From Chloroflexota bacterium (GTDB lineage: Bacteria; Chloroflexota; Chloroflexia; Chloroflexales; Roseiflexaceae): a stretch of DNA of 64,000 nucleotides. The notes beneath the pieces are model-generated. The model saw only the letters and a list, made by a program, of their open reading frames with translations. It had not been told where the DNA came from and searched no databases. Location of the stretch: the NCBI GenBank assembly GCA_018969485.1, contig JAGWYG010000010.1, positions 1 to 64,000 of the forward strand, in the 5' to 3' direction. Position 1 is the first letter of the stretch; each line of letters starts with the position of its first letter. The translations under genes and the position numbers were made by a program. This document shows, piece by piece, positions 50,741-63,760 of this stretch.

Positions 50741-51018
50741 GGGCGGACATAATCATGCCCCGCCCCTACGCCAGGGACGAGGCCATGCGACCCCGCGGTA
50801 CCACCCTGCTTGCCGCCTGTCGGCGACCGCTCGACGAGGTGCGATCACACCTCCGCCCATGCTAACGGTGGGCGAATCCGGGCCGGGCTACTACGCGGTG
50901 CGGTTCGCTGGCCAGCTCGGGAGGGATGTTCTGCCGGGGATTCGGGCGCGCCTCACACCATCCGCACGCTCGCTGTCCGCATCGATCCGGCATACTCGTC
51001 TCCGTCAACGCTTATGTG
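50741..51018 (-). promoter_or_regulatory. T-box riboswitch of ileS
   Basis: On the minus strand the T-box sequence GGGTGGTACCGCGG (core TGGTACCGCG at 50803-50794) is followed by CTCGTCCCT-loop-AGGGGCG, the competing stem. Upstream are GACGAGTA and AGCGAGCGTGCGGATGGTGTGAGGC, as in Stem I and the inter-stem region of T-boxes. A candidate Ile specifier ATC is at 50986-50984 (tentative). Uncharged tRNA(Ile) would favour the antiterminator. No T-run follows the competing stem, so control could be at termination or at ribosome access. Confidence 0.88.
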
Positions 51019-57220: not shown

Positions 57221-58117
57221 TCAGCGCTGCTCGGGCGCGCCGAACTGCGCATCGACCGGCACCAGCAGCACCGAGCCATCGAGCGCCCCGATCGCCAGCA
57301 GCGCACCATCAGGTGAGAACATGACACACGGCACCGTCTCGGCAGCCACGCTCAGTTCCCTGATGCGACGGCCATCGGCGACGCGCCAGATCAGCACGCG
57401 GCCGTCGCCGCCAGCCGATGCCAGCAGGGCGCTGTCCGGCGAGAAGCTGACGCCCATCACGGCGCGCTGGTGGCCCTGGAGCAGCCGTGGCCCGCCGCCG
57501 TCGTGCAACTGCCAGAGCCGCACCAGCCCATCGGCCGAGGCCGAGGCCAGCAGCGCACCATCGGCACTGAACGCCAGCCCCCATACGGTGCCGCGATGGC
57601 CGGCCAGCGTGCGAGCCAGAAATCCCTCGGGCATGCGCCACAGCTTGACGCTGCCATCGCCCGATGCGGTGGCCAGCAGTTCGCCATCGGGCGCAAAGCG
57701 TGCGCCGAACACGCCCGCCGTGTGCCCGGCCAGGATGCGCAACGGACTACCGTCGGCCAACTGCCAGATGCGAACCTGGTGATCGGCACCGGCCGAGGCG
57801 AGATGCTCGCCATCGGGCGAGAAGGCGACGCCGCCGATGTAGTCGGTGTGGCGCTGCAACATCAGCAGCGGCCGACTATCGCTGACGCGCCAGATGGTGA
57901 TGTCGTTGTCCCAGCCGCCGGTGGCGAGCTGGGAACCATCGGGCGAAAAGGTGACGCACGTCACCGCCTGGCGTGCCGTCTGACTCCAGATCAGCCGACC
58001 ATCGCCGACATCCCACACTTTGATCATGCGGTCGCCGGCGACGGTGGCCAGCATCGCGCCGTCGGGCGAGAACGCGATCGCAGTGACCCAGTTGGTGTGG
58101 CCGCGCAGAACCCTCAC
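57221..58117 (-). CDS. Seven-repeat WD40 protein
   Basis: 298 aa, GTG at 58117 behind AAGGAG. Seven blades of about 40 aa can be read: RGHTNWVTAIAFSPDG..IKVWD; QAVTCVTFSPDG..ITIWR; RHTDYIGGVAFSPDG..VRIWQ; GHTAGVFGARFAPDG..VKLWR; GHRGTVWGLAFSADG..VRLWQ; GHQRAVMGVSFSPDS..VLIWR; AETVPCVMFSPDG..VLLVP. So it forms one complete propeller with no extra domain. WD40 proteins are scaffolds; a free-standing bacterial one may organise the membrane protein encoded just downstream. The blades are similar enough to suggest recent expansion. Confidence 0.92.
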   Translation of the reverse strand: MRVLRGHTNWVTAIAFSPDGAMLATVAGDRMIKVWDVGDGRLIWSQTARQAVTCVTFSPDGSQLATGGWDNDITIWRVSDSRPLLMLQRHTDYIGGVAFSPDGEHLASAGADHQVRIWQLADGSPLRILAGHTAGVFGARFAPDGELLATASGDGSVKLWRMPEGFLARTLAGHRGTVWGLAFSADGALLASASADGLVRLWQLHDGGGPRLLQGHQRAVMGVSFSPDSALLASAGGDGRVLIWRVADGRRIRELSVAAETVPCVMFSPDGALLAIGALDGSVLLVPVDAQFGAPEQR

Positions 58118-58177: not shown

Positions 58178-59494
58178 TTATACCGTGAACGCGTGATCGG
58201 ACGGCGGCGGCCGGGTGGCGCAGGCCCACAGGCAGGCGATGGCGGCCTGCTGGTAGAGGTAGGGCCACAGGACGGGATTGAACGCCATGAACAGGAGGAG
58301 CGCGGCGGCGAGCGCGGCGATGAGCGCGGCGTCGCTGGGACGCCGCCACCACGCGTGGCCACCGATCAGCAGCAGCATCCCGGCCTGGATGGGCTTGAGC
58401 CAGCCCTCGAGCCCGCGACGCCAGAAGCTGCCGCTGAAGCCGAGCTGTGACGCCCAGGTGTGGTCGAGCTCCCAGCGCAGTCGCGGATAGCGCGCGAGGT
58501 CGTTGAACCACAGCCAGACGCCATACTGCACCATGGCGGCGTCCCAGATGAGGAATGGTGCCAGCCACGCGGTGCCGACGAGCAGGGCGGTGGCGCAGCC
58601 GCGGATGAGCTTGCGCCAGCCATCAGCGCGGCGCGCGATGGCGACAAACGGCGCGACGATGATGGCGAACGGCGAGGTGGCGCCGGCGAGGCCCAGCCAG
58701 ATCCAGACGCTGTGCCGGCGTTCGGCCAGCGCGGTGAGCACGGCCGCGAGCACCGCCCACCAGATCGGCGCAGTGGTGGTGAGCGACCAGTTGAGTACCG
58801 AGGGCTGCAGGAACATCCAGCTCCACAGGCCGGCGGCGGCGGGGCTGCGCCGCCAGAGCATGGCACCGACGCACGTCTCGGCGATGAGGTTGCTGAGGCG
58901 GATGTCGAGACCGAGCAGCGCCGGTGGCAGGTAGGCCAGCCAGCTGATCGGGAGATAGGTGAGGGGTACCGGCCACGGCATGGCGTAGATGGCGTACGGG
59001 CTCTGGCCGGCGAGCAGGCGCTGCAGTGCACCGCGCACCAGCGGCAGCATGTCGCCATGCTCGGGGATGATCGGCAATGCGGCGGCGCCGATCAGCCGCG
59101 CGGCACCGCCGAGCACCAGCGCTGTGGCGAAGAGCGCCGCCGGGCGGGGCCAGCGCCAGGCGATCACGAGCAGCGCCAGCAGGCCAGCCGCCAGCGCCAG
59201 CCACAATCCCGGCGTCGGTGCGGCCACGAGAAACCCGGCCAGGTTGTGCGCAGTCGCCACCCAGGCACAGGCGGCCAGCAGCGCGGCGGCGCGCGTGCCG
59301 GGCAAGCGCGACGGCGCTCGCGCGATCAGCAGCATCAGTGCGATCAGGCTGACCACCAGCGCTCCACCGAGCGCAGTCCACGAGCCCATGACGGACTGTA
59401 GCCGATACACGTGCAGTGCGCCGAGCACGTCGAGCATCGCGAGGAGTGCCAGCGCAGCCGGCAACCAGCCACCCGGCACGCGTCGCGCGATCAT
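58178..59494 (-). CDS. Polytopic membrane protein (glycosyltransferase-87/DUF2029-like)
   Basis: 438 aa, last gene of the three-gene glycosidase operon, start overlapping the upstream stop (ATGA). About 10-11 helices. A hydrophilic segment after the fifth helix (PIIPEHGDMLPLVRGALQRLLAGQSPYAIY) fits the first loop of GT-C or DUF2029 mannosyltransferases, where an acidic residue is catalytic. PLTYLPISWLAYLPPALLG and LQPSVLNWSLTTTAPIWWAVLA follow. It would use lipid-linked sugars on the outer face. Assignment is by topology and loop pattern. Confidence 0.6.
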   Translation of the reverse strand: MIARRVPGGWLPAALALLAMLDVLGALHVYRLQSVMGSWTALGGALVVSLIALMLLIARAPSRLPGTRAAALLAACAWVATAHNLAGFLVAAPTPGLWLALAAGLLALLVIAWRWPRPAALFATALVLGGAARLIGAAALPIIPEHGDMLPLVRGALQRLLAGQSPYAIYAMPWPVPLTYLPISWLAYLPPALLGLDIRLSNLIAETCVGAMLWRRSPAAAGLWSWMFLQPSVLNWSLTTTAPIWWAVLAAVLTALAERRHSVWIWLGLAGATSPFAIIVAPFVAIARRADGWRKLIRGCATALLVGTAWLAPFLIWDAAMVQYGVWLWFNDLARYPRLRWELDHTWASQLGFSGSFWRRGLEGWLKPIQAGMLLLIGGHAWWRRPSDAALIAALAAALLLFMAFNPVLWPYLYQQAAIACLWACATRPPPSDHAFTV

Positions 59495-61299
59495 GGCACG
59501 CTCGCCACCACATAGTCGCGCGCTGGTGCAAGGATGCGGGTGACGCTCGGCCGCGCCGGCCCATCGTCGACGCGCACCTGGCCGCCGTCGACCAGCGGTC
59601 GCAGCTCGACGATCACCGGCTGGTCGCTGCGGATGATGTAGCGCGCCCGCGCCGCGTCGAGCAGCAGGTCGATCCGCGCACCCTGGTAGCTGAAACCGGT
59701 GATGCCGTCGCCGGGGATGGTGCGAAACGGCCGCGGTGCGACGATCAGGCGTGCCGGTGTCGGCTGCAGCCCGTAGTGTCCGCCGTAGATTGCCAGAAAC
59801 CACGCGGCGCTGTCCCAGGTGCGCCCGCGGTCGCCGCTCTCGCCCGGGCCATAGCGGGCAGTGTCACCGGCGATGAACTCGAGCACCGGTGGGTCCGTGT
59901 CGGCGACCATCGCGCGGTAGGCTCCCATGATCTGCTCGGCTTCGGCTGCCAACCCTGCCGCAGCATAGGCCGGCGCCGCGAGCCCGACGATCCACGGCGC
60001 GCTGGCATCGAGCATCCACAGCGGCACCGGCGGATCGACGACGCGGCGCATCTCGGGCTCGTAGCCGCCCAGCGTCAGGCGGAATGGCGCAGGATCGGCG
60101 AGAAAGTCCGGCAGGTGGCGCTGCAGTGCGGCGACCAGGCCGGCATACTGCGGGTCGTCGCGGTCAATCAGGCCGCTGCGCAGCGCGGCGAACACGCCGA
60201 ATGTCTCGAGGATCGGGACGATCCGGCCATCGCCGCGGCGCCAGGCGATCGGCCATGGTTGGGACGTCAGCCAGTAGCCGCCGGCATCGACCGGGCGGTG
60301 ATAGCCGCTGCGCAGCGCTGCGGCATGCTCGCGCCAGCGTGCGCCGTCGTGGCCGGCCCACGCCTCGAGCTCCGCGAGCTCGAGGAATGCGCCGTAGAAC
60401 CGCGCCAGCGCGTAGGTATGCAGCGGGCCGTTCTCGATCGAGTCATAGTATCCGTACGGAAAGATATCCTGGTCGGGCATGCCATCGCCGTCGCTGTCAA
60501 GGCGCACGATCCAGGCACCAATCGTCAGCAACGTACCACGGTACTGCTCATAGAACGAGCGGTCGCCGGTCTTGGCGACATAGACGTATGCTGCATGGAT
60601 CAGGTTGGGCATGCTGTCCCAGCTGGTGCGATTCTCGGCATCGAGCCGGTCGCCGCGCAGGTAGACCGTCTCGGGGGCGACGCCGTCGGCGGCGACATAC
60701 TCCATGAACAGGGCGATGTTGTCGGCGAACACCGAGAGATCGCCCAGCGCCAGCCCATACCCGCTGATCGCATAGTCCAGATCGCGCGTCCAGACGCTAT
60801 TGCTGTAATTGCGCTGGCTGGCGCGCAGCCCGCGCAGACCGGCGACATCGATGATGTTCGCACGGTAGCCATGCTCCAGCAGCAGCGCATCGATCGCGGG
60901 CGCATAGCGCGCCGCGGCCACCGGCAGCACGGCCTGCACGGTCGGTGCCAGTGGCGCGATGGCCGTCAGCGTGACACGCAGCCCGGCGTCGGCCTGCTCC
61001 TGGGCCACGATCGTCGCAGCAGCCTGGCGAGTCGCCGCGAGGGTGTCACTCGTCGGGCGTGGTTGCGGCCGGGCGGTGGGCGTCGGCGTCACGTCCCGGC
61101 GCTCGAGCGCCCGCACCGGCGTCGCGGCGGGCGGCGCCGTCTCGGCTGGCGCCACGGCGGGTGGCGCCACCGCACGCACCAGCGCCAGCGCCAGCACACC
61201 GAGCGCCAGCAGCGCGATGCCCCCCGCCAGCACCAGCGCCGGACTGCCGCCGGCAGACTGGGCGACGCGGCGCTGCGCAGCGCGCGAACGGCGCCTCAC
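59491..61299 (-). CDS. Membrane-anchored GH15-like (alpha/alpha)6 glycosidase
   Basis: 602 aa; GTG at 61299 overlaps the upstream stop (GTGA). An N-terminal membrane anchor (about 18-40, PALVLAGGIALLALGVLALALVRAV) and a Pro/Ala/Thr spacer put the catalytic part outside. The (alpha/alpha)6 region begins about residue 105. NSVWTRDLDYAISGY, DSDGDGMPDQDIFPYGYYDSIENGP and SPYGYYDS-type acidic sites are typical of glucoamylase-like toroids; WTRDLDY is the best active-site mark. DSDGDGMPDQD looks like a calcium-binding loop. Acts with the upstream GH39-like enzyme on an extracellular polysaccharide (inference). Confidence 0.75.
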   Translation of the reverse strand: MRRRSRAAQRRVAQSAGGSPALVLAGGIALLALGVLALALVRAVAPPAVAPAETAPPAATPVRALERRDVTPTPTARPQPRPTSDTLAATRQAAATIVAQEQADAGLRVTLTAIAPLAPTVQAVLPVAAARYAPAIDALLLEHGYRANIIDVAGLRGLRASQRNYSNSVWTRDLDYAISGYGLALGDLSVFADNIALFMEYVAADGVAPETVYLRGDRLDAENRTSWDSMPNLIHAAYVYVAKTGDRSFYEQYRGTLLTIGAWIVRLDSDGDGMPDQDIFPYGYYDSIENGPLHTYALARFYGAFLELAELEAWAGHDGARWREHAAALRSGYHRPVDAGGYWLTSQPWPIAWRRGDGRIVPILETFGVFAALRSGLIDRDDPQYAGLVAALQRHLPDFLADPAPFRLTLGGYEPEMRRVVDPPVPLWMLDASAPWIVGLAAPAYAAAGLAAEAEQIMGAYRAMVADTDPPVLEFIAGDTARYGPGESGDRGRTWDSAAWFLAIYGGHYGLQPTPARLIVAPRPFRTIPGDGITGFSYQGARIDLLLDAARARYIIRSDQPVIVELRPLVDGGQVRVDDGPARPSVTRILAPARDYVVASVP

Positions 61300-63692
61300 C
61301 GCGGTCGCGTCTCGTTGCCGAGCAGCCCGAGCAGCACGTCGTACGGCGCCGCATTCTCGGGGTGCAGCTCGAGGCGAGCGCGCTCGAACCACTGAACCGT
61401 GCGGCTGCGGCCATCCGACAGGACCTCGCTCTGCGGCGATGACAGCGGCAGACCGAACAGCGCCAGATTCTCCTCGACCGTCTTCCCCGGTCTGCCATCG
61501 ATCTCGAGACCCGAGGCGCGCCACGCCTGCAGGAGCCGGCCACAGATGCTGTGCCCGGTCTGGCTGAAGGTCAGGCAGTCGCCGCCGGGCGCCGCCACGG
61601 CGAACGCGCGCCAGTCACGCCCCTGGAGCCGCAGCAGGTCGTCGCCGACGCGGCCGAGCAGCACGTCGTAGGGCCGCGGATTGGCCGGGTGCAGCTCGAG
61701 GCGCGTCCGCTCGAACCACTGCACTTGCAGCGTGGCACCTTCGATCGTCTCGGCACGCTGCGGTGATGTCGGGAAACCAAACACGGGCAGGCCACCATTC
61801 TGCTCCCAGAACTCGCGGATCCGCCCACCGATGCACTGGCCCGTCTCGCTGAAGCAGCGCTGGTTGCTGGTGCCCGGATCGGGTGCGGGTGCTGCGGGTG
61901 CGGGTGCGGGTGCGGGTAACGCCGGGCGATGGATGAGGTAGAGCGGGCTGGGGCCAACGCTGAGGGTGAATCGGCCGCCAGCGGCATCGACGGTGGCCGT
62001 GCCGCCCTGGCGATCGATCAGCGCACCTTGGGGCGAAGCGCTGACGACGGTAATCTGGCCCGGTGCGATCGACCAGTAGACATCGATCACCTCGCCGCCG
62101 CCGCGGTCGAAGCGGGCGCCATAGGCCTCGGGGCCAGCCAGCGCGGTGATGTCATCGAGGAAGATTGTCCCGCTGCGCACACGTGCCTCGCTGTTGTCGA
62201 GCACAATCGCCGCCAGCGTGGCGGGGAAACTCAGCGTGCTGGCCGTGCCACTGATGCGGTTGTACGATTCGACCGGCCCGGTGATCGCGCTGGAGAGGAA
62301 CTGCCAGCCGGCGGCGCCGACGTAGCCGAGACGATACTGCAGCACCTCGCCACCAGCGCCACGCAGCCAGACCTTGATCGCGCTGCCGCCGCCGTCACCA
62401 TAGACCCAGATGCCGAACTGGCTGGTGCCGGGCGCCAGCGCCGGCTGCCCCGACGTGGTGAAGACGACAAATTTCTGTGCCGCGTCCTCAGGAATGCCAT
62501 AGGTCAGCTGTCCGGCGGCGGTGCCGCTGCGCACCTGGGCGCCGCTCTGGGTGAATGTACCGTACGGCTGATCGCCACGCCGCCACGCGCCGAAGCGTTC
62601 GAAGTCGGCGATCGCCTGTGGTTGCGCCGGGCTGAGCGCACCGAGGCTGGCGCTGCCGCCGACGTACTGGTTGAGCGTGCTGAACGCGGCGAACGACGGC
62701 CGGGGTGACCCGAAATCGAGCGGGTTGCCACCGCGAAATACCCCATAATCCTGGCCGCCGGCGGCATCCTTCAGGCTGTACCACAGCACCTTCTCGGCCC
62801 CCGCGGCACGCAGTAGCACCATCGAGCGCACCAGGTAGCTGGCCTGGTCTTCCTCGCTGAAGGCCACGCCACCGCGCCCGCCGGCGCCGGTCGAGTAGCC
62901 GGACTCGGTGGCCCAGATCGGCTTGCGCCCCAGGCGATCGACCAGCGACCGAATGCTGCCGAAGCCGGCACTGTCGATCTGGCCGCGCTCGGGTGGCAAT
63001 GGGTCGGTGTATGGATGGATTGAGACGATATCGAACGACGACCATGCGCCCTGATCGGCGAGCGCAGCCAGCCAGCTGGCCGCCGGTTCGGGAGATACGA
63101 TGCCCGCCACCATGATCTGCGCTGTGGGGTCGACGGCACGGATCGCGGCGGAGGTGGTCTTGAGCAATGTGGCGTACTGGCCGATGTCAGGTGCCGGCTG
63201 CCAGTAGAGCGCGTTATCCGGTTCGTTCCAGATCTCCCAGACGCGCACGCGGTCGCGGTAGCGCGCCACGGCTGCTGCGGCGAAGCTGGCGAATGCCGCC
63301 GGATCTGGCGGGGCAAAGGTGTCGCCGGCCCGCCCCTGCGCGGCCCAGCCCGGGGTCGGGCCGTTGAGCAGCCCGATGACGTTGATGCCACGGCCGGCCA
63401 GCGCGTCAATCGCGGCGTCGGCGTAGCGCCACTCGTAGCGCCCGGGTGCGGGGGCGATGCGATGGAACTGGAGATCCTCGCGCGCCCATCCGGTACCGGC
63501 CTGTGCCAGCAGGCTGGCCGGCGTGGCCATGCTGCCCGGCTGGGCATGCCGCGAGGCGATGTGGCTGTTGATGCCGAAGGCCGAACTGCCCGGTGCCGAG
63601 CGCGCGATGTGTGGTGCGGGCCACGCGAGCGTCAGCAACAGCACGATCATCATGCCGAACCGCCATCCCATCCTGATCCGCCGCTCGGCCAT
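61296..63692 (-). CDS. Secreted GH39/GH5-like glycoside hydrolase with duplicated C-terminal module
   Basis: 798 aa, ATG at 63692. Signal peptide 1-32. The catalytic TIM barrel (about 38-360) has acid/base Glu157 in VWEIWNEPDN and nucleophile Glu263 in IWATESGYSTG, the clan-A pattern. A beta-sandwich CBM-like region is at about 380-590. After a PAPAPA linker two copies of a C-terminal module follow (about 620-705 and 710-798): CFSETGQCIGGRIREFW / CLTFSQTGHSICGRLLQAW, then VQWFERTRLELHP / VQWFERARLELHP, then PYDVLLGRVGDDL / PYDVLLGLLGNET. That module is common in Chloroflexota secreted enzymes and probably mediates cell-surface retention. First gene of the operon. Confidence 0.88.
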   Translation of the reverse strand: MAERRIRMGWRFGMMIVLLLTLAWPAPHIARSAPGSSAFGINSHIASRHAQPGSMATPASLLAQAGTGWAREDLQFHRIAPAPGRYEWRYADAAIDALAGRGINVIGLLNGPTPGWAAQGRAGDTFAPPDPAAFASFAAAAVARYRDRVRVWEIWNEPDNALYWQPAPDIGQYATLLKTTSAAIRAVDPTAQIMVAGIVSPEPAASWLAALADQGAWSSFDIVSIHPYTDPLPPERGQIDSAGFGSIRSLVDRLGRKPIWATESGYSTGAGGRGGVAFSEEDQASYLVRSMVLLRAAGAEKVLWYSLKDAAGGQDYGVFRGGNPLDFGSPRPSFAAFSTLNQYVGGSASLGALSPAQPQAIADFERFGAWRRGDQPYGTFTQSGAQVRSGTAAGQLTYGIPEDAAQKFVVFTTSGQPALAPGTSQFGIWVYGDGGGSAIKVWLRGAGGEVLQYRLGYVGAAGWQFLSSAITGPVESYNRISGTASTLSFPATLAAIVLDNSEARVRSGTIFLDDITALAGPEAYGARFDRGGGEVIDVYWSIAPGQITVVSASPQGALIDRQGGTATVDAAGGRFTLSVGPSPLYLIHRPALPAPAPAPAAPAPDPGTSNQRCFSETGQCIGGRIREFWEQNGGLPVFGFPTSPQRAETIEGATLQVQWFERTRLELHPANPRPYDVLLGRVGDDLLRLQGRDWRAFAVAAPGGDCLTFSQTGHSICGRLLQAWRASGLEIDGRPGKTVEENLALFGLPLSSPQSEVLSDGRSRTVQWFERARLELHPENAAPYDVLLGLLGNETRPR

Positions 63693-63760
63693 CGCGTGCC
63701 TCACTCCCCTGCGCACCACGCCAGCGCGACATCGCCACACAGTGACAGCGCCGCCATCCG

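Follow-up and report, generated by a model that had tools for sequence, protein, structure and literature searches.

The C-terminal part of a GH39/GH5-like enzyme encoded in a 64,000-nucleotide stretch of DNA from a Chloroflexota bacterium (hereafter the window) consists of two homologous units, and this pair proved to be an old, widespread and recurrent dyad on exported Chloroflexota proteins. Profile comparisons and predicted models showed the module to be homologous to LGFP (PF08310), as a divergent Chloroflexota-type branch, and it is quite likely that the dyad, through its LGFP fold, holds proteins non-covalently on the cell wall.

The ORF list and translation gave the enzyme as an ORF of 814 aa (61296-63740, stop codon included) on the minus strand, as are all its features below, in which a signal-peptide-like start, a GH39/GH5-like domain, a beta-rich region, a Pro-rich linker and the two-unit module follow one another. 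The signal-peptide-like stretch covers residues 24-49 (63594-63671; read from the sequence by eye, cleavage site uncomputed), and the Pro/Ala-rich linker preceding the module covers residues 606-627 (61860-61925; from the sequence). Alignment, sequence and predicted fold delimit unit 1 as residues 629-703 (61632-61856), and alignment and sequence delimit unit 2 as residues 724-812 (61305-61571). An earlier reading of the window from the sequence alone (the sequence-only reading) had placed the duplicated module at 61296-62000; the two homologous units were confirmed, and positions 61857-62000 fell outside the module, covering the linker and the last part of the region before it. Unit 1 contains, in order, the hairpin C629...C636, a helix with FW, then GG, FGFP, VQWFERTRLELHP and PYDVLLG, whereas unit 2 has its first Cys at residue 722 (61575-61577) and its second at residue 733, and carries an insert before FGLP that is also present in some relatives. 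The motifs VQWFERxRLELHP and PYDVLLG attributed to both units are present in each, but the CFxxTG motif fits only unit 1, since unit 2 has TF, with the first Cys two residues earlier. The two units share 44% identity (38/87 columns, 14 gaps, E=1e-22), and all four cysteines of the mature protein lie within the module, one pair per unit. DNA comparison uncovered an 86-nt direct repeat with one copy in unit 1 (61639-61724) and another in unit 2 (61312-61397), 81% identical to each other.

The catalytic part reads, by eye, as a TIM-barrel-type glycosidase. The motif WEIWNEPD (63216-63239) holds a candidate acid/base Glu and IWATESGYS (62892-62918) a candidate nucleophile Glu, which, by analogy with the GH families, would be the acid/base and the nucleophile, respectively, of a clan GH-A enzyme. 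In Pfam, the catalytic part matched Cellulase (GH5) with an E-value of 5.6e-5 (23.2 bits, below the curated cut-off of 23.5) and Glyco_hydro_39 with an E-value of 6e-4 (19.2 bits, below the curated cut-off of 26). As both scores fall under the curated cut-offs, the enzyme is named GH39/GH5-like only; with the catalytic part placed by Pfam near GH5 and GH39, the earlier name "GH39-like" is fair but unproven. Directly downstream lies a 602-aa reading frame (59494-61299, minus strand) that gave no Pfam match at 0.01 and in which a hydrophobic stretch can be made out by eye close to the N-terminus; as a guess, it may encode another glycosidase belonging to the same operon. The window also contains a WD40 beta-propeller protein (57224-58117, minus strand, E 1.8e-73) and a T-box leader (50770-51017, minus strand) that, at 93.4 bits, just exceeds its gathering score of 93.

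An AlphaFold2 model of the window pair, built from an alignment of 31 pairs, reached a pLDDT of 91.8. VIA, run on the 593 PDB chains ranked highest by Foldseek (580 aligned), placed the LGFP of Corynebacterium glutamicum mycoloyltransferase A (MytA) first (6swz, Z 8.5, rmsd 1.8, 59 aligned), followed by 6sx4 at Z 7.9, with the next entry outside that protein at Z 3.1, a Z under 8 being one that may reflect merely a common arrangement. In plain Foldseek, mycoloyltransferase A was not among the best 50 of 101 rows for the window pair (best E 0.65). For another model, with a phage unit as its lead sequence (pLDDT 84.9), the top three Foldseek chains were mycoloyltransferase A (probability 1.00, E 0.015-0.025; next E 1.6), and VIA again gave that protein (Z 6.8, below the same level of caution, rmsd 4.4 over 80), with the next outside it at 2.8. 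Both predicted models have the helix and 3- to 4-stranded sheet of 6swz. Among the viral structures of BFVD, the best match was unnamed (4.5e-5), the second was the amidase of Gordonia phage Gsput1 (1.6e-3), and three of the top five carried names of amidases or lysins from Gordonia and Rhodococcus phages; the whole-model TM-scores of these five were low (0.23-0.32).

Profile comparisons were consistent with this relationship. Aligned by hhalign with an LGFP profile made from units of seven phage lysins and MytA, the module profile gave 94.6% and a score of 38.8, the motifs falling in register; the highest score among 300 column-shuffled controls was 20.5. The LGFP profile scored above 5 bits in 235/256 units, compared with 2/256 shuffled and 0/256 reversed ones, and in HMM searches the module and LGFP profiles each found the other above reversed controls. 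The Pfam LGFP cut-off of 22 bits was passed by four of ten relatives tested (28.5, 23.0, 22.7 and 22.1 bits), while three others matched below it and three had no LGFP match at E 0.1; the window module itself, at 20.1 bits, fell below. In alignment A1, 20 of the 31 members matched LGFP at E<=10, the best at 1.1e-6. A PF08310 search of the window's own genome returned nothing above the cut-off, a PDB sequence search with the unit profile had no LGFP entry among the matches listed (best E 0.23), and NCBIfam offered no relevant family for the module. The possibility of a family related to nothing known was rejected on the VIA fold match, the hhalign result and the passes of the Pfam LGFP cut-off. 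Typical LGFP occurs as tandem repeats of about 54 aa, often three to five, and the present module departs from this pattern; given its units of 75 and 89 aa and two units per ORF in 117/124 cases, it was filed as a divergent LGFP variant and not as a typical member. The earlier description of the module as lacking a named function was therefore only partly right, since the module is a divergent relative of LGFP, for which a cell-wall-binding role is reported; the branch itself, a large one, is unnamed.

A near-invariant feature of the branch is ERxRxE, in which the residues R, R and E are found in 98%, 97% and 96%, respectively, of 248 units from two-unit proteins. In the predicted model, these residues sit at and after the turn following the strand that ends in QWF. 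The ERxRxE hairpin is a candidate contact site for an acidic ligand.

Regarding the age of the pair, the best relative of a second unit elsewhere was another second unit in 104 of 124 deduplicated two-unit pairs, and that of a first unit was another first unit in 98 of the 124, indicating that the two units are inherited together. This set includes the two-unit proteins of the window's own genome and of viral contigs, and is separate from a set of 124 module ORFs (loci L013-L122, not deduplicated, units above 15 bits, some ORFs cut by the locus end), in which two units were counted in 117, one in six and three in one. A recent duplication private to the window gene was rejected, as the best-relative counts make the pair old; only the 86-nt stretch of the window units looks homogenised, to judge from the DNA comparison.

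The dyad is also recurrent within and between genomes. In the window's own genome (4.02 Mb, 247 contigs), the module was additionally found on a subtilase, VanW, an L,D-transpeptidase, an M14 peptidase, a thermonuclease with a lamin-tail domain, and a GH5-like enzyme and a beta-propeller-like protein, the last two both below the Pfam cut-off. The M14-type peptidase (L010, contig C84) has a first unit without the ERxR motif and, of the members of alignment A1, is the least similar to the window pair (29% identity). Module matches (E<=0.001) occurred in 70/151 sampled Chloroflexota genomes, with a few barely inside this limit, and at least 36 were counted in each of several Chloroflexales genomes. 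A scan of one genome per species across 84,980 species revealed at least 590 stretches encoding a module relative, and the titles of the 80 loci kept were all of Chloroflexota groups (in the wide sense, Thermomicrobia included) or of the bacteria HR26/HR28. Two of 72,556 plasmid records carried the module, namely those of Candidatus Chlorohelix and Thermomicrobium roseum (its megaplasmid); the 375-kb plasmid of Candidatus Chlorohelix allophototropha (NZ_CP128401.1) matched it at 27 places. T. roseum was placed in Chloroflexi in the part consulted of its genome paper (PMC2615216), and its database record now reads Thermomicrobiota.

The proteins carrying the dyad are largely exported. A hydrophobic 14-mer within the first 90 residues, a crude test for export, was present in 90/105 complete two-unit ORFs compared with 46/192 control ORFs from the same loci, and inspection by eye of 12 of the 15 ORFs without it found RRxFLK-like Tat signals in four. 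Together with the distribution above, this bears out the sequence-only reading that the module is widespread on Chloroflexota secreted proteins. In addition, the hairpin-strand cysteines of 259 units occurred together (both in 51, the first only in six, the second only in none, neither in 202), as expected of a disulfide outside the cytoplasm.

The partner domains and the distribution of murC bear on the function of the module. A total of 121 partner regions, which were drawn from the matches most like the query and are thus not a random sample, fell into 38 clusters, of which 37 were scanned in Pfam (a 62-aa cluster was left out; E limits 1e-4 to 0.01), 26 with and 11 without a match. Nine clusters were wall-directed (VanW, YkuD, SpoIID, Amidase_2, Amidase_3, two of M23 and two of polysaccharide deacetylase) and held 49/121 regions, named and counted by one representative per cluster, 17 of the 49 being VanW, many from near relatives. 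Other partners included two sortases, GH18, a CAP protein, beta-propellers, GSDH, a GDSL lipase and Big_1 repeats, and propellers, GSDH, subtilase and GH5/18/39 are among the many partners other than wall enzymes. Among the same 151 genomes, the module was found in 0/16 without a murC match better than 1e-15 and in 70/135 of the others (p=2.2e-5), with weak or partial murC matches in G001, G014, G049, G058, G099 and G139 counted as murC present. By family, the association was 0/8 versus 28/49 (p=0.0026), and among genomes of at most 2.3 Mb it was weak (0/16 versus 5/19, p=0.036), the murC-less genomes all being small; the counts by family and by size were tallied manually. These statistics ignore shared ancestry, and so support a wall ligand and do not prove it. 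The module went unseen, at the search sensitivity used, in 65/135 murC-bearing genomes, indicating that it is not needed for having peptidoglycan. By genomic association, the function of the module points to the cell wall.

Viral copies lead in the same direction. Fifteen loci on viral contigs encode a module relative, and in seven of these (L137, L138, L139, L141, L142, L143 and L144) the product is an amidase with one C-terminal unit, six being Amidase_2 above the Pfam cut-off and one Amidase_3 just below. A second one-unit protein at L142 had no Pfam match. PHROGs identified tail-fibre, minor-tail or virion neighbours in four of the seven amidase loci (L139, L141, L142 and L144), gave no match for the neighbours tried in L137 and L143, and returned for L138 a single match with no known function. 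As far as the sequences go, these viral proteins look like phage endolysins, combining, in a phage context, a peptidoglycan-cutting domain with a C-terminal one. At 1e-15, 16 of the 151 genomes matched the L139 endolysin, and only in Chloroflexota genome G126 did one place cover both domains, with 76% identity over the two; the DNA around that place is colinear with L139 in five main blocks at 84-96%. These two observations tie one phage type, and one of the seven viral endolysins, to a Chloroflexota host. The colinear region of G126 (G126:C4:3000-22000, L158), a relative of viral contig IMGVR_UViG_3300020567_000320, is probably a prophage.

The other eight viral loci (L130-L136 and L140) encode two-unit secreted proteins in place of an amidase. 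These may be host genes, and those of L130, L131, L134 and L135 may be prophage cargo or host genes; for the protein of L132, Pfam gave a doubtful repeat match only. Unit 1 of L134 is 75% identical to window unit 1. In GenBank phages, tblastn found the module in 0/50,697 records at E 0.01.

The sequence-only reading had offered surface retention or substrate binding as the role of the module, and the evidence favours the former. A carbohydrate-binding module that keeps the GH39/GH5-like enzyme attached to the polysaccharide it acts on would suit the glycoside hydrolases among the carriers (the window enzyme and several partner clusters, GH5/39/42/18) and the reported contact of LGFP itself with a glycan-bearing wall (PMC11299179, in part). 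This explanation is nevertheless improbable, as the dyad occurs on catalytic domains with unrelated substrates (in the same genome, L,D-transpeptidase, subtilase, nuclease, VanW, M14 and beta-propeller-like proteins, which have no common substrate) and single units sit on phage amidases. A signal for sorting or secretion, comparable to the C-terminal ones of other secretion systems, would agree with the C-terminal position of the module in 70/124 ORFs, but the module is N-terminal in 42 and central in 6 (and alone in 6), and it forms the C-terminal domain of phage endolysins; with both protein ends in use, this very improbable explanation was rejected.

Two further explanations concern what the folded units would touch. 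An anchor to exopolysaccharide, a sheath or an S-layer, in place of the peptidoglycan-linked wall, is rather unlikely, and shares its anchoring part with the preferred explanation, so that the odds of the two overlap. It would be consistent with the at least 36 matches in some Chloroflexales genomes, and T. roseum, with the module on its megaplasmid, is reported in the available part of PMC2615216 to have a protein-rich wall with little peptidoglycan, which counts against a wall ligand. On the other side stands the absence of the module from all 16 genomes without murC. Furthermore, the ligand of an endolysin has to lie on the envelope's peptidoglycan side, which also counts against such an anchor. 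The LGFP fold might instead be retained solely for structural spacing or dimerisation; no ligand is known for the module, and both window units have Leu in the EYHP motif, where Tyr is commonest (53% of units). Near-invariant charged residues at and after the predicted turn would hardly be needed by a spacer, though they could still be structural, and we regard this explanation as quite improbable.

According to the preferred explanation, that of a cell-wall anchor, the signal peptide would be cleaved after export and the two units would then fold LGFP-like into a helix and beta-sheet, each with an additional N-terminal hairpin that in the window protein would be stapled by one presumed disulfide. 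The folded units would bind a repeated cell-wall polymer, probably peptidoglycan or a polysaccharide attached to peptidoglycan, and this binding would keep the GH39/GH5-like enzyme attached to the cell that makes it, or to the filament of that cell. Probably, many exported proteins of these bacteria are held on the surface by this module. Chloroflexota have unusual walls: their peptidoglycan usually contains L-ornithine according to the part consulted of PMC3368417, in whose reference list one title mentions a peptidoglycan-polysaccharide complex of Herpetosiphon. We infer that the ligand may be a polymer of the L-ornithine peptidoglycan-polysaccharide type. More tentatively, and with somewhat less than an even chance, the dyad could be a general anchoring code of much of Chloroflexota that reads a polymer typical of the phylum, L-ornithine peptidoglycan-polysaccharide, via ERxRxE, much as arabinogalactan is read by LGFP in mycolata, and that phages copied to aim their endolysins. 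If true, LGFP-fold wall binding would span two phyla with very different walls. Should the anchor explanation be right, many unnamed proteins would gain a testable location and ligand class, a Pfam-type family could be drawn for the module, and the viral endolysins would serve as probes for the wall polymer and as tools to lyse hard-to-study Chloroflexota.

In the open-licence PMC literature, no description of the module and no account of how exported proteins stay on Chloroflexota cells were found, and a search for LGFP together with Chloroflexi returned LGFP only in a table of endolysin domains. In the consulted part of PMC10803476, a paper returned for cell-wall-binding domains and Chloroflexota, the endolysin has LysM. 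Like the non-covalent anchors LysM, SLH, SH3 and CW_1, the present module is a repeated element on unrelated exported enzymes with the same presumed role; these belong to different families, and the module had no Pfam match to any of them. In the parts seen of PMC8310338 and PMC3314691, LGFP figures among the binding domains of phage lysins, and the endolysins of Rhodococcus, Nocardia and Gordonia phages (e.g., Barnyard gp39) resemble the viral copies described here in bearing a domain of related fold C-terminal to an amidase or lysin, although theirs is mostly tandem LGFP and the viral copies have one Chloroflexota-type unit. In its consulted passage, PhaLP gives LGFP as exclusive to Corynebacteriales among lysins and suggests arabinogalactan as ligand (PMC8310338), whereas a lysin with an LGFP-related unit is here tied to a Chloroflexota genome.

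The closest known counterpart is the LGFP of C. glutamicum mycoloyltransferase A/PS1 (6swz, 6sx4), described in the available part of PMC11299179 as a 54-aa helix and 3- to 4-stranded sheet present in five copies in MytA, and reported there to bind the peptidoglycan-arabinogalactan wall. Compared with it, the window units are longer (75 and 89 aa, not 54), with unit starts mostly 90-100 aa apart across the module; an N-terminal beta-hairpin (consensus YFPETGH) is added, with two Cys in about a fifth of units; ERxRxE (FERxRxE) replaces the Gly-rich turn FExG; and the units are nearly always two, not five. Nevertheless, the module and the MytA LGFP have the same predicted fold (Z 8.5) and a common order of motifs, namely helix, G, (L/F)G(Y/F)P, QxF(E) and a hydrophobic strand, and both are carried by exported proteins.
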